64,000 nucleotides of DNA from Candidatus Mnemosynella biddleae. GTDB lineage: Archaea; Halobacteriota; Archaeoglobi; Mnemosynellales; Mnemosynellaceae. Of the stretch, positions 33,721-38,268 are shown one piece after another (the stretch's first letter is position 1; each line of letters starts with the position of its first letter). The DNA lies in contig MTMI02000011.1 of NCBI GenBank assembly GCA_002011165.2, positions 62,001 to 126,000 of the forward strand. Direction: 5' to 3'. The notes under the pieces were generated by a model. It ran no database searches and was not told where the DNA came from. It worked only from the letters and a program-made list of their open reading frames with translations. The position numbers and the translations under genes were made by a program.

Positions 33721-33821
33721 AAAAATGCATTTTTGGCCGAGTTTTGAAAAATCGAAATTATTAAATAATGATTCTTGCGTTCTTATCTTCTGGATATGTT
33801 ATCCAGGTCGGAGGGTAAAAG

Positions 33822-36038
33822 ATGAAGAAATCAATTGCTATCATAATGGTTCTTCTCTCAGTTACATTCCTCCTCTGCTCGAATCCATCTCTGGCAACAA
33901 CTTTTCATGCAGACGAGATGAGGAGCGGTAACTTCTCAGAGTACGGTCCTGAAAACTCTGAGCTTGTGTATAAAGTTAAATTAACTCCAGTTCATGGCTC
34001 ACCTATTGTGAGTGATGGGGTGGTATACGTTTTATCTGATTTGGGATATGATCCAACTTGGAAACCCCTCTATAATGCTGGCGAAGGTCTACACGCCATT
34101 AACGCAACAACAGGAGACATTCTGTGGAACGTCTCTGGAATCTACGGAATGTCCACACCCTCTGTCAGCGGAGCTTATGTTTTCGTTCATGTTTATGATA
34201 ACGCAAGTGGAAGCGGTAAGCTCTATTCTTTCTACGCAGTAAATGGTAGTGAAGTCTGGAATAGAACAATAGAACCTCAAATTGCATATTGGTATGTCGC
34301 CTCATCTCCTCTGGTTTATAACAACTCCATTTACGTGCTGAGCTATGATGGGACACTTTACCGTTTCGATTTTGATGGAAACGAGCTCTGGAACTTAAGT
34401 ATCGGAAACACTCTTTCCTCAAGTTACATGAGCTCTCCTTCTGCATGGAATGGAACGATTTACTTCATTGCAAACGTCTCAAATACTTACAAGCTCGTTG
34501 CAGTTGATGAAAATGGAAATGAAATCTGGAATAGAAGCGTTGAGGGTGTGATCAAAGCTTCTCCTGCTTTGAGCAACGGAATCGTTTACATTCCAACAAC
34601 CTCAAAACTCTATGCCTTTAACGCCTCAACGGGTGAAGAACTCTGGAATATCACTTTCAGCGGAACATATTCAACTCCCAGTGTGTACGGGGAGAGACTT
34701 TATGTCGGCTCCACAAGCGGAATTCACTGGTTCAATTCTTCAACTGGGGAGGAGATTTGGAATTATAGTGTAGGGTTTGTTGGTTCCTCACCAGCCACGT
34801 CAAATGGAGTCGTTTATTTCGCGACGAATGTCCAAAATGGGACCATTTATGCCTTAAACGCAACGGATGGAAGCTTGCTCTGGAAATATGAGACGAACAA
34901 CTTCATCATGTCCTCTCCCTTCATCTACAACGGAAAGCTTTACATTGGCGCAGATGACGGAAATCTTTACATCGTCGGTCTTTGGAAAGGGACTGTAGAT
35001 TTGAAACCTCTCAAACTTACAATCGAACTGAAAGATGGTAGTTTCACGCAAATAGATGGAAACAGTGCGCTGGCGGCTCTGATAAAAGCATCAGAGAAGG
35101 GTAAATTCAGTGTAACAGTTGCTAACTCCACATGGGGGCTTTATGTCGAAAATATTGGCAACATCCAGCCGCAGGGATGGGACGGATGGATGTACTGTGT
35201 TAATGGTATAATGCCAGATAAGAGTTCTCCAGACTATAGGCTGAAAGATGGAGATGTGGTAGAGTTCTTCTATGGTTCTTGGGGCATCTCACCGGATGAT
35301 GCTAGATACAGGCTGATAATTCACGTGAATTTGAGTAATGTTATCTGGAATGGTACAGTGGAATTGAAAGAAGGAAACTTCACAGCTATTGTGAATAATA
35401 AAAGTTACGAAATTAGCAATCTGACAGCATTGGGAGCTTTGAATGTCGCAAGTTTAATTGGAAAATTTAATTACAGCTTAAATGATGAATGGTATGAGTC
35501 CTACGGGCTAATAGTGAATTCCATTTACGGAATAGAGAATAACGGAACCTCAGGGTGGATGTACTGGGTAAACTATCCAAAAGAGTCCATGCCAACAAAT
35601 GCTTCCAATGTTTATCCGGTGGAGGACGGAGATGTTGTGTACTGGTATTACTCCACGAGTTTGAATGATACACCAGAAACCTCACCTTATGTGATAAAGA
35701 TTGAAGTGAGGACGAAAATTGCAGATATAAATAATCTCTCAGCCGAAAATGGGCAGAGAGGAGGATATATCAACACAATTGTAAATCTCACTTCATACTA
35801 TTCTGGATGGCTCGTCATTGTCGTCAGCGGAACGAATGAGAATGGAGATAGTATTGCCGGAACCGGTGTTGTGATGGCTAGTAAAGGAGAGAGAATCGAG
35901 GTACCCATCATAATTGCAATACCGCAGCAGGTTCAAACAGGGAACTACAACCTTTATGCAGCAGTCTATAAGCTGAGCGAGTATTCAGAAAAGATCTCGG
36001 AATATACAACAACTCCGGTTAACTTAAGTGTGAGCTGA
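33822..36038 (+). CDS. Secreted PQQ-like beta-propeller protein with two DUF4430 domains
   Basis: The 738-residue protein has a signal peptide (residues 1-26), a PQQ-like beta-propeller (about 40-390) with repeated LYAFNASTGEELW-type blades, then two transcobalamin-like C-terminal (DUF4430) domains at about 410-485 and 530-612, each with a GWMYxVN motif. A final beta-rich domain (about 620-738) follows. There are many N-x-S/T sites, as in a glycosylated surface protein. It has no PGF-CTERM tail. Its stop is 10 bases before the start of the next surface protein, so they form a pair. Ligand unknown. A corrinoid is one possibility from the domain family. Confidence 0.82.
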   Translation: MKKSIAIIMVLLSVTFLLCSNPSLATTFHADEMRSGNFSEYGPENSELVYKVKLTPVHGSPIVSDGVVYVLSDLGYDPTWKPLYNAGEGLHAINATTGDILWNVSGIYGMSTPSVSGAYVFVHVYDNASGSGKLYSFYAVNGSEVWNRTIEPQIAYWYVASSPLVYNNSIYVLSYDGTLYRFDFDGNELWNLSIGNTLSSSYMSSPSAWNGTIYFIANVSNTYKLVAVDENGNEIWNRSVEGVIKASPALSNGIVYIPTTSKLYAFNASTGEELWNITFSGTYSTPSVYGERLYVGSTSGIHWFNSSTGEEIWNYSVGFVGSSPATSNGVVYFATNVQNGTIYALNATDGSLLWKYETNNFIMSSPFIYNGKLYIGADDGNLYIVGLWKGTVDLKPLKLTIELKDGSFTQIDGNSALAALIKASEKGKFSVTVANSTWGLYVENIGNIQPQGWDGWMYCVNGIMPDKSSPDYRLKDGDVVEFFYGSWGISPDDARYRLIIHVNLSNVIWNGTVELKEGNFTAIVNNKSYEISNLTALGALNVASLIGKFNYSLNDEWYESYGLIVNSIYGIENNGTSGWMYWVNYPKESMPTNASNVYPVEDGDVVYWYYSTSLNDTPETSPYVIKIEVRTKIADINNLSAENGQRGGYINTIVNLTSYYSGWLVIVVSGTNENGDSIAGTGVVMASKGERIEVPIIIAIPQQVQTGNYNLYAAVYKLSEYSEKISEYTTTPVNLSVS

Positions 36039-36048
36039 GGTGAAAAGT

Positions 36049-38268
36049 ATGATGAAGCTCAAACACGTTTTAGTTCTCTTTCTAACTCTCGTGATTCTCA
36101 GCTCATCAGTTTCAGCTCTTACAATCGAGGTGACAGGAGGATACAGGGGTGAGCCTGTTAGTGTAACTCTTGATCAGAAGGCATTCATAATTTTCAGAAT
36201 GAATAACGGAACTCCAGTTTATGCTTACGGGACTGAGGCGAAGTTTCTTCCATATGTCACGGGAGAGTTGAGAATCGAAGCCATTGCAAATGGAGTAAGA
36301 TCAGTTAAAATCATTCAGATAACTGAAAAGCCAGAGGAAAAGGCAGGAGGAGCAGAAGGAATTAAGCAAGGAGCTTATTATCTCCCATCAGAGTCCAGAA
36401 CAGCTCTTGGAGCACTTCTAAAAGCTTCAGAGCTGAGAGGATTCGGGGTGGAACTCAGTGGAAGTTACGTTAGAGGAATTGGAGGAATTTATGAGAAGTC
36501 AATGGGAGAAACATCAGGGTGGATGTACAGTGTGAACGGAGAAATCCCAATGCTTCCAGCTTCGGATTATGAGCTGAAACCCGAAGATACGCTCCTCTGG
36601 TACTTTGTGAGAAACTATGGAGATGGTCCTTCAACTTCTCCTTACAAAATCGAGATCAAAGTTTATTCTGATTGGAGTTTCGATATTCAGATAACCCCTC
36701 CAATGCCGTGGGGAATTGAAGGAGAAAAGGAAAAAGTTGAAGTAACACCTAAGATAACTCCAACACCAGAAATTAAAAAAGTTGCTCTGTTGAATGCAAC
36801 CGAAAATTCTCGAAAATTCCTCGTGCTTCAAAACACTTCGATAGAGGTGAACTTCACAGAGATACCATTGAAGTTGAATTTAAGCATCTCCCCTCCCGTT
36901 GAAGTGACGATAAAGAAAGAGAAAGTCTCAGGAATCATTTTCAACAATCTCTACGCAACTCCCTTAGAGTTTTTCAATCTAGAACTCAACAAAAGTGGAA
37001 AAATAGTTTTGAATTTTTCAATATCAAAAGAGAAGCTCTTTGAGCTGAATGCATCGCCTCATGATGTTTCGTTGCTTAAGTTCAATGAGAAATGGGTTAG
37101 GATTCCCGTAGAATTGAGTGGAGAGAACGAAACACATTACTTCTTCCAAGCAGAAATCAAAAATTTCAGTCTTTTCGTTATAGCTGTTGAGTGGAAGAAT
37201 TTTCCACTTGAGAGGACAGATGAAGCAATAGTCAAAGCTCTTGGGTGGCTCAGGAGCATTCAGAGAGAAGACGGAGGCTTTGCCAATCCGGGAGAGAAGA
37301 GCAGTAGTCTCTCAGGAACTTCATGGGCTATTATGGCAATCTCTTCCGCTGGAGAGGATCCAAGGCTCTGGAAGAAGAATGGAAACAGTCCTCTTGATTA
37401 TCTGAGAAGAAACGTTCATAAAGAGCTCGATCAAATGGGCACTATTGACTACGCAAGAACCATTCTCGCTCTTGTCTCGGCAAAAGAGAATCCAAGAAAT
37501 TTCGAGGGAATAGATTTTGTGGAACTTCTGAAAAGCAAGGTGAAAGAGGATGGACAAATAGGAGACTACGTTCACACGACTATTTGGGGAATTTTGGCTC
37601 TGGCCTCAGTGGAAGAGGACGTGAGTAAATCGGTAGAGTGGCTGAAAAATCATCAGAATGATGATGGGGGATTTTCTTGGATTCAAGGAGGAGAGAGCGA
37701 CTTTGATGACACTGCAGCTGCGATTCAGGCTCTTATAGCAGGAGGAGAGCCAAGAGATAGCGAAGTCATCCGGAAGGCTCTTGACTACCTAAGAGAAGGC
37801 CAGAGGGAAGACGGAGGAGTGAGTTACTTCAATGAGTTATCAAGCAACTCCGCAAGTGACGCATGGACAATTCAAGCTCTCGTTGCAGCTGGAGCGAATC
37901 CTATGGAATGGAAAAGAAATAATATAAGCGTCGTTGAACATCTGTTAGGCTTGCAAGAGGAGGATGGACACTTCAAATACAATAAGGATTACGATTCAAA
38001 TCCAGGTTACATGACTGTCTCTGCTATTATCTCTCTTCTCGGAAAACCGCATCCCATAAAACCTGAGTTCACCGTTTCAACTTCTTCAGAACAATCTCAA
38101 GAGGAGATTCAGAAGACTCCTGAGGTCTCGAAAACCCCTGAGATGACAGAAACGGTTCGCGAAGAGTTGATGGAGGAAGAGAAAAAAGCTCCAGGATTTG
38201 AGGTTACATTAGCAATCTTAACTATTTTGGTGATTACGCTGATTATGATGAGAAAGAAAGGAGGTTAA
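36049..38268 (+). CDS. PGF-CTERM surface protein with DUF4430 and alpha-barrel repeat domains
   Basis: The 739-residue protein has a signal peptide (1-23), a DUF4430 domain (about 105-190, with GWMYSVNG), a PGF-pre-PGF-like domain (about 290-380, ending in NFSLFVIA), and a repeat region (about 385-670) of helical QREDGGF-type motifs like those of prenyltransferase/cobalamin-binding alpha/alpha barrels. A Thr/Pro/Glu linker then leads to PGF, a hydrophobic segment and RKKGG. The tail is the archaeosortase A signal. DUF4430 plus alpha barrel are the two folds of transcobalamin, here in reversed order. GAGGTG precedes the ATG at 36049. Confidence 0.85.
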   Translation: MMKLKHVLVLFLTLVILSSSVSALTIEVTGGYRGEPVSVTLDQKAFIIFRMNNGTPVYAYGTEAKFLPYVTGELRIEAIANGVRSVKIIQITEKPEEKAGGAEGIKQGAYYLPSESRTALGALLKASELRGFGVELSGSYVRGIGGIYEKSMGETSGWMYSVNGEIPMLPASDYELKPEDTLLWYFVRNYGDGPSTSPYKIEIKVYSDWSFDIQITPPMPWGIEGEKEKVEVTPKITPTPEIKKVALLNATENSRKFLVLQNTSIEVNFTEIPLKLNLSISPPVEVTIKKEKVSGIIFNNLYATPLEFFNLELNKSGKIVLNFSISKEKLFELNASPHDVSLLKFNEKWVRIPVELSGENETHYFFQAEIKNFSLFVIAVEWKNFPLERTDEAIVKALGWLRSIQREDGGFANPGEKSSSLSGTSWAIMAISSAGEDPRLWKKNGNSPLDYLRRNVHKELDQMGTIDYARTILALVSAKENPRNFEGIDFVELLKSKVKEDGQIGDYVHTTIWGILALASVEEDVSKSVEWLKNHQNDDGGFSWIQGGESDFDDTAAAIQALIAGGEPRDSEVIRKALDYLREGQREDGGVSYFNELSSNSASDAWTIQALVAAGANPMEWKRNNISVVEHLLGLQEEDGHFKYNKDYDSNPGYMTVSAIISLLGKPHPIKPEFTVSTSSEQSQEEIQKTPEVSKTPEMTETVREELMEEEKKAPGFEVTLAILTILVITLIMMRKKGG

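Follow-up and report, generated by a model that had tools for sequence, protein, structure and literature searches.

A probable two-protein corrinoid receptor at the cell surface of the archaeon Candidatus Mnemosynella biddleae

As two adjacent genes for secreted proteins, here called P1 and P2, lie in a 64,000-nucleotide stretch of DNA (the window) from Candidatus Mnemosynella biddleae, a relative of Archaeoglobus, and a sequence-only reading had taken them for a possible transcobalamin-like surface binding pair, we were interested whether both proteins serve the capture of corrinoids and how far the likeness to the animal vitamin B12 carriers extends. The features of the two genes, in window coordinates, are as follows.

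33753-33769, plus strand: putative archaeal BRE/TATA promoter element of P1 (cgaaattattaaataat), read from its consensus
33810-33815, plus strand: ribosome-binding site of P1 (ggaggg), from the sequence
33822-36038, plus strand: P1 open reading frame, 738 amino acids, with signal peptide, beta-propeller, two DUF4430 domains and C-terminal beta domain
33900-35006, plus strand: eight-bladed propeller of P1, PQQ/BamB type (PF13360, AlphaFold2 strand pattern, Foldseek)
35064-35276, plus strand: first DUF4430 domain of P1 (PF14478, 44.7 bits)
35502-35654, plus strand: second DUF4430 domain of P1 (PF14478, 31.2 bits)
36040-38268, plus strand: P2 open reading frame, 742 amino acids, GTG start (orthologues, Pfam, NCBIfam, AlphaFold2)
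36400-36609, plus strand: DUF4430 domain of P2 (PF14478, 57.8 bits)
36985-37185, plus strand: PGF-pre-PGF domain of P2 (NCBIfam TIGR04213, 41 bits, cut-off 28)
37192-38055, plus strand: alpha6/alpha6 toroid of P2 with the invariant (S)DxDDT motif (PF13243, AlphaFold2, family alignment)
38191-38265, plus strand: PGF-CTERM anchor signal of P2 (sequence, Gly-Phe conservation)

P1 is secreted and has no anchor of its own. Its PQQ/BamB-type propeller, which had been missed before, was detected with PF13360 (Pfam, E 2.9e-39); the AlphaFold2 model (mean pLDDT 89.4) consists of eight blades, followed by the DUF4430 domains and a beta domain, and Foldseek with the propeller model led to BamB and tetrathionate hydrolase. 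Only a single base separates the P1 stop from the P2 start, and an in-frame ATG at 36049 lies downstream of the GTG at 36040. P2 is built from a signal peptide, an N-terminal beta domain, the DUF4430 (SLBB) domain at residues 121-190, the PGF-pre-PGF domain, the toroid at residues 385-672 and a PGF-CTERM tail reading APGFEVTLAILTILVITLIMMRKKGG. Full-length P2 orthologues are 43-53% identical, and Gly719-Phe720 of the tail is invariant in 18 of them. Pfam analysis of the alpha/alpha region gave PF13243 (E 9.8e-16), PF00432 (3.3e-10) and the TED family PF07678 (4.3e-5), and the AlphaFold2 model of P2 (mean pLDDT 83.3) showed twelve toroid helices at a pLDDT of about 95. With a pTM of about 0.6 in both models (0.61 and 0.59), the packing of the domains is tentative. 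The domain content read from the letters alone was therefore confirmed: three DUF4430 domains in two adjacent proteins, all above the curated PF14478 cut-off of 23.8 bits and without a further copy elsewhere in the 1.5 Mb genome, an alpha/alpha-barrel repeat in the second protein, and a PGF-CTERM anchor on P2, where TIGR04213 passes as well.

When a family profile of 47 DUF4430 domains was run against the PDB, transcobalamin-1 was the top match (E 9e-5), followed by transcobalamin-2 (0.005), a Ruminococcus DUF4430 protein and intrinsic factor (0.05). The DUF4430 domains of P1 and P2 share a detectable kinship with the C-terminal domain of transcobalamin. A WGxFVxCIxGxC hairpin of most relatives resembles WGPYITCIQGLC in transcobalamin-1; both of its cysteines are missing in the proteins of the genus Mnemosynella. 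For the toroid, PF01122, the transcobalamin toroid family, gave no match in P1 or P2 at E 0.1, and transcobalamin was absent from the best 60 PDB matches of the toroid family profile, so that a link by sequence was found by neither route. The P2 toroid is transcobalamin-like at the level of the fold only. Thus, the earlier claim that one chain unites both transcobalamin folds stands for the folds and falls for the sequences, and as P1 and P2 share domain and fold with transcobalamin while the toroid sequence does not, they are placed outside the animal family. With transcobalamin, haptocorrin and intrinsic factor (PF01122 plus PF14478) the pair has in common the DUF4430 kinship and the alpha6/alpha6 toroid fold, but the toroid sequence is unrelated within detection, P2 has additional beta domains and a membrane anchor, and a second, propeller protein is added with P1. 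The order of the domains is also different, toroid followed by SLBB in the animal family and SLBB followed by toroid in P2; this reversal, pointed out before, is real and is not new, as both orders had been described from bacteria in 2007 (PMC1796856).

The relatives that the toroid does have by sequence raise a first alternative. Squalene-hopene cyclase was the best PDB match of the toroid family profile (1.7e-33), farnesyltransferase was also found, and a DxDDT motif, reminiscent of the one used for catalysis by squalene-hopene cyclases, is present in 42 of the 43 aligned family toroids, at residues 554-558 of P2 (37699-37713 in the window). This conserved DxDD and the cyclase resemblance count against a corrinoid receptor; together with the PF13243 match they would suit a P2 toroid that works outside the cell as an enzyme resembling class II terpene cyclases, given its invariant motif. 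Such an enzyme is nevertheless extremely improbable. Squalene-hopene cyclases use two barrels, while the P2 model holds one barrel and not the two-barrel cyclase core, P2 is secreted and anchored, and the same motif occurs in riboswitch-controlled clostridial toroids and in toroid-BtuF fusions. NCBIfam cyclase models on P2 stayed far under their cut-off (52.8 vs 322.7 bits). A prenyltransferase match of the repeat, named beforehand as an argument against a transcobalamin-like barrel, was indeed obtained with the toroid sequence, yet it is non-discriminating, as the same cyclase- and prenyltransferase-type matches were obtained with clostridial toroids under riboswitch control. The thioester cysteine of the alpha-2-macroglobulin TED was also sought, and P2 contains no cysteine at all. 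Foldseek with the P2 toroid returned generic toroid matches; these, like the propeller matches, being generic, say nothing on the ligand. In addition, conserved toroid positions did not cluster at the presumed ligand mouth, the N-ends of the inner helices (7 of the 40 top conserved positions in residue windows spanning 19% of positions), which likewise counts against the receptor reading; conservation sits mostly in structural QxxDGGF motifs.

Further points against a corrinoid receptor are the tentative domain packing of the models and the absence of a corrinoid gene next to P1-P2 in the M. biddleae genome. Some P2 match, weak ones counted, was present in 45 of 60 related genomes, and in the regions taken from relatives P1 and P2 adjoin each other. 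There, 19 of 20 fetched regions contain a BtuF-like gene, mostly directly after P2, and in the twentieth the contig stops inside P2. The pair is often flanked by BtuC, BtuD, CbiB or CbiZ (PF01955, E of 1e-43 or lower), and CbiO/CbiQ-type (ECF) transporter genes are absent beside the archaeal pairs, with BtuFCD there instead. A wider search of genome contigs added loci from Methanosarcinales, Methanophagales and Methanomicrobiales. Where an archaeal locus has a next gene, this gene is BtuF-like and on the same strand in 25 of 40 cases. Toroid and BtuF-like domain even form one polypeptide in 14 Methanomicrobiales loci (L083, L085, L089, L091, L095 and nine more), and Pfam detected PF01497 in five of five fusions tested.

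Other arrangements of these genes were also observed. At three Methanosarcinales/Methanophagales loci (L077, L078, L081), either DUF4430 and toroid are encoded by different genes or the propeller protein carries DUF4430 repeats, and these separate or rejoined parts precede BtuF and BtuC. A contig labelled Nitrosotalea (L098), possibly misbinned, carries a Methanophagales-like set of P1, DUF4430, toroid and BtuF.

Clostridial operons with toroid and DUF4430 genes encode a CbiQ-type EcfT, a double EcfA ATPase and an ECF substrate component, some of them also CbiZ. A cobalamin riboswitch (RF00174) precedes the operon in 11 of 17 clostridial loci searched; none was found in the 64-kb window. These riboswitches point to a corrinoid as well, and do so independently of the gene neighbourhoods in archaea.

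Whether the cell needs corrinoids from outside was approached by family searches of the M. biddleae genome, which is rated 100% complete. CbiD (ring synthesis), CbiB and CobS (completion) and CbiZ were not found in it, and the controls matched; cobamide users are present as an AdoCbl-dependent ribonucleotide reductase and, next to an MtrH-like methyltransferase, a corrinoid protein. The cell seems unable to make corrinoid cofactors. Among 29 well-assembled genomes of the class with P2, 20 contain CbiD and nine do not; therefore, the pair is not limited to non-producers and a need for import is not general, and the 20 genomes with CbiD count against the receptor reading. They also bear on a second alternative, a surface receptor for another ligand of a FecCD-type importer, such as heme, an iron chelate, an F420 precursor or some other metabolite. 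B12 is made by many of the archaea in which these domains occur (PMC1796856; P2 genomes with CbiD), and the BtuF-like genes match not BtuF alone but also general PGF-anchored SBP models and heme models, with all scores below the equivalog cut-offs. Against a different ligand, CbiZ and CbiB occur in the operons of relatives, cobalamin riboswitches control clostridial homologues, and the genes for cobamide synthesis are missing from M. biddleae, which together make it unlikely.

The sequence-only reading had also suggested a look for BtuCDF nearby. The genome does contain a likely btuFCD, on another contig (C7, locus L138). Two FecCD systems were detected, of which the one on C7 holds the closer relatives of BtuF, BtuC and BtuD: its permease best matches BtuC, its ATPase best matches a corrinoid ATPase, and for its SBP, BtuF is second to the general PGF-anchored SBP model, all with scores below the equivalog cut-offs. 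It is divergent from the AdoCbl-dependent ribonucleotide reductase gene (TIGR02504, 747 bits). What both loci have in common is one further feature of the P1 leader:

33790-33806, no strand assigned: perfect palindrome CTGGATATGTTATCCAG, putative operator or leader hairpin, common to P1 and btuFCD

The palindrome sits between the TATA-like box and the P1 start, and CTGGATATGTTATCCA recurs directly before btuF on C7, with the palindrome at L138:11569-11585. Across the 1.5 Mb genome, a search for exact copies of its core TGGATANNNTATCCA gave only those ahead of P1 and btuF, two compared to about 0.15 expected from composition and none for the reversed control. In the sister genome G001, three sites with at most one mismatch were detected, before P1, before btuF and in a coding region; there the palindrome has been kept in a P1 leader that has otherwise diverged. 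Before P1 and the transporter genes of other genera, the search gave single weak or coding-region matches only. As the palindrome was seen only in the two genomes of the genus, no wider regulon is claimed. It may act as an operator in the DNA or as a short hairpin in the RNA and could define a small corrinoid regulon, perhaps with the product of a winged-helix DUF4443 gene after btuD in the same operon (L138:7860-8465), a candidate by position only, as its corrinoid-responsive regulator. The second FecCD importer (L139:8931-12798) lies beside a radical-SAM-like gene and is without the palindrome.

A third alternative would be that P1 and P2 are structural or adhesive surface proteins without a role in transport, and that the neighbours of their relatives are coincidental. 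Propellers, beta domains and PGF anchors are common among archaeal surface proteins, and P1 and P2 carry 30 and 11 N-glycosylation sequons, respectively. We consider this very improbable, as it would account neither for the linkage with BtuF and the toroid-BtuF fusions nor for CbiZ, the riboswitches and the palindrome before btuF. From the operons of relatives, the toroid-BtuF fusions, the clostridial riboswitches and the shared palindrome, the corrinoid proposed as ligand is well supported, and P1 and P2 most probably serve a corrinoid (cobamide) importer as its receptor component outside the cell.

How such a receptor would work may be outlined as follows. The PGF-CTERM tail would anchor P2 at the cell surface, and we infer, in analogy to the two domains of transcobalamin, that the surfaces of the P2 toroid and DUF4430 domain would take up the corrinoid between them. 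P1 would contact and join P2, so that propeller and paired DUF4430 domains could add capture capacity or affinity. The corrinoid would then be handed over to the lipoprotein BtuF and imported by the BtuCD encoded elsewhere in the genome, and the shared operator or leader hairpin would let the cell control the P1-P2 and btuFCD operons together.

Corrinoid salvage with BtuFCD and CbiZ is a trait of archaea such as Halobacterium, and the same genes are found in the operons of P1-P2 relatives; to our knowledge, no transcobalamin-like surface receptor has been described for salvage of the Halobacterium type. A functional parallel is BtuG of Bacteroides, a surface propeller that catches corrinoid (PMC6143338). 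Like P1, it is a beta-propeller protein of the cell surface whose gene occurs together with genes for corrinoid transport, but BtuG is a seven-bladed outer-membrane lipoprotein that works with BtuB, whereas P1 has an eight-bladed propeller of the PQQ type and DUF4430 domains and is anchorless; BtuG was absent from the best 50 Foldseek matches listed for the P1 propeller. The closest description is that of Burroughs et al. (2007), who defined an SLBB clade holding these proteins, with toroid fusions in bacteria, paralogue pairs in one operon, a propeller fusion in Clostridium and CbiO/CbiQ operons, and predicted B12 scavenging; as archaea are often B12 producers themselves, they considered a different metabolite possible for the archaeal members (PMC1796856). 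Secretion, the DUF4430/SLBB domain, the toroid fusion, the pairing of paralogues and the propeller fusion are common to this clade and our pair. The clade was tied to CbiO/CbiQ (ECF), in contrast to the BtuF, BtuC, BtuD and CbiZ that partner the archaeal pairs here, and the toroid-BtuF fusions and the shared putative operator go beyond that description. No later treatment of the archaeal proteins was found in the open-access literature, most subscription journals being outside this coverage.

B12 binding by such proteins is thus already known as a prediction from 2007, with doubt for the archaea (PMC1796856), and new are the archaeal coupling to BtuFCD, the toroid-BtuF fusions and the shared control site. 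Judged from sequence, the pair is best seen as an archaeal, BtuFCD-coupled version of an already known type of surface corrinoid receptor. A fuller picture can be put forward only tentatively: a two-protein archaeal corrinoid cage, in which the propeller-DUF4430 protein would provide a BtuG-like second site next to the DUF4430-toroid protein, with hand-over to BtuF and co-regulation with BtuFCD, as one form of a modular receptor that would be served by BtuFCD in archaea and by ECF transporters in Clostridia and would be related to transcobalamin through DUF4430. Little is known about how cobamides are collected outside archaeal cells. The question left in 2007, whether the archaeal members have a role in B12 uptake, has now become directly testable, and the toroid-BtuF fusions hint at the way in which the ligand may leave the receptor for the transporter.
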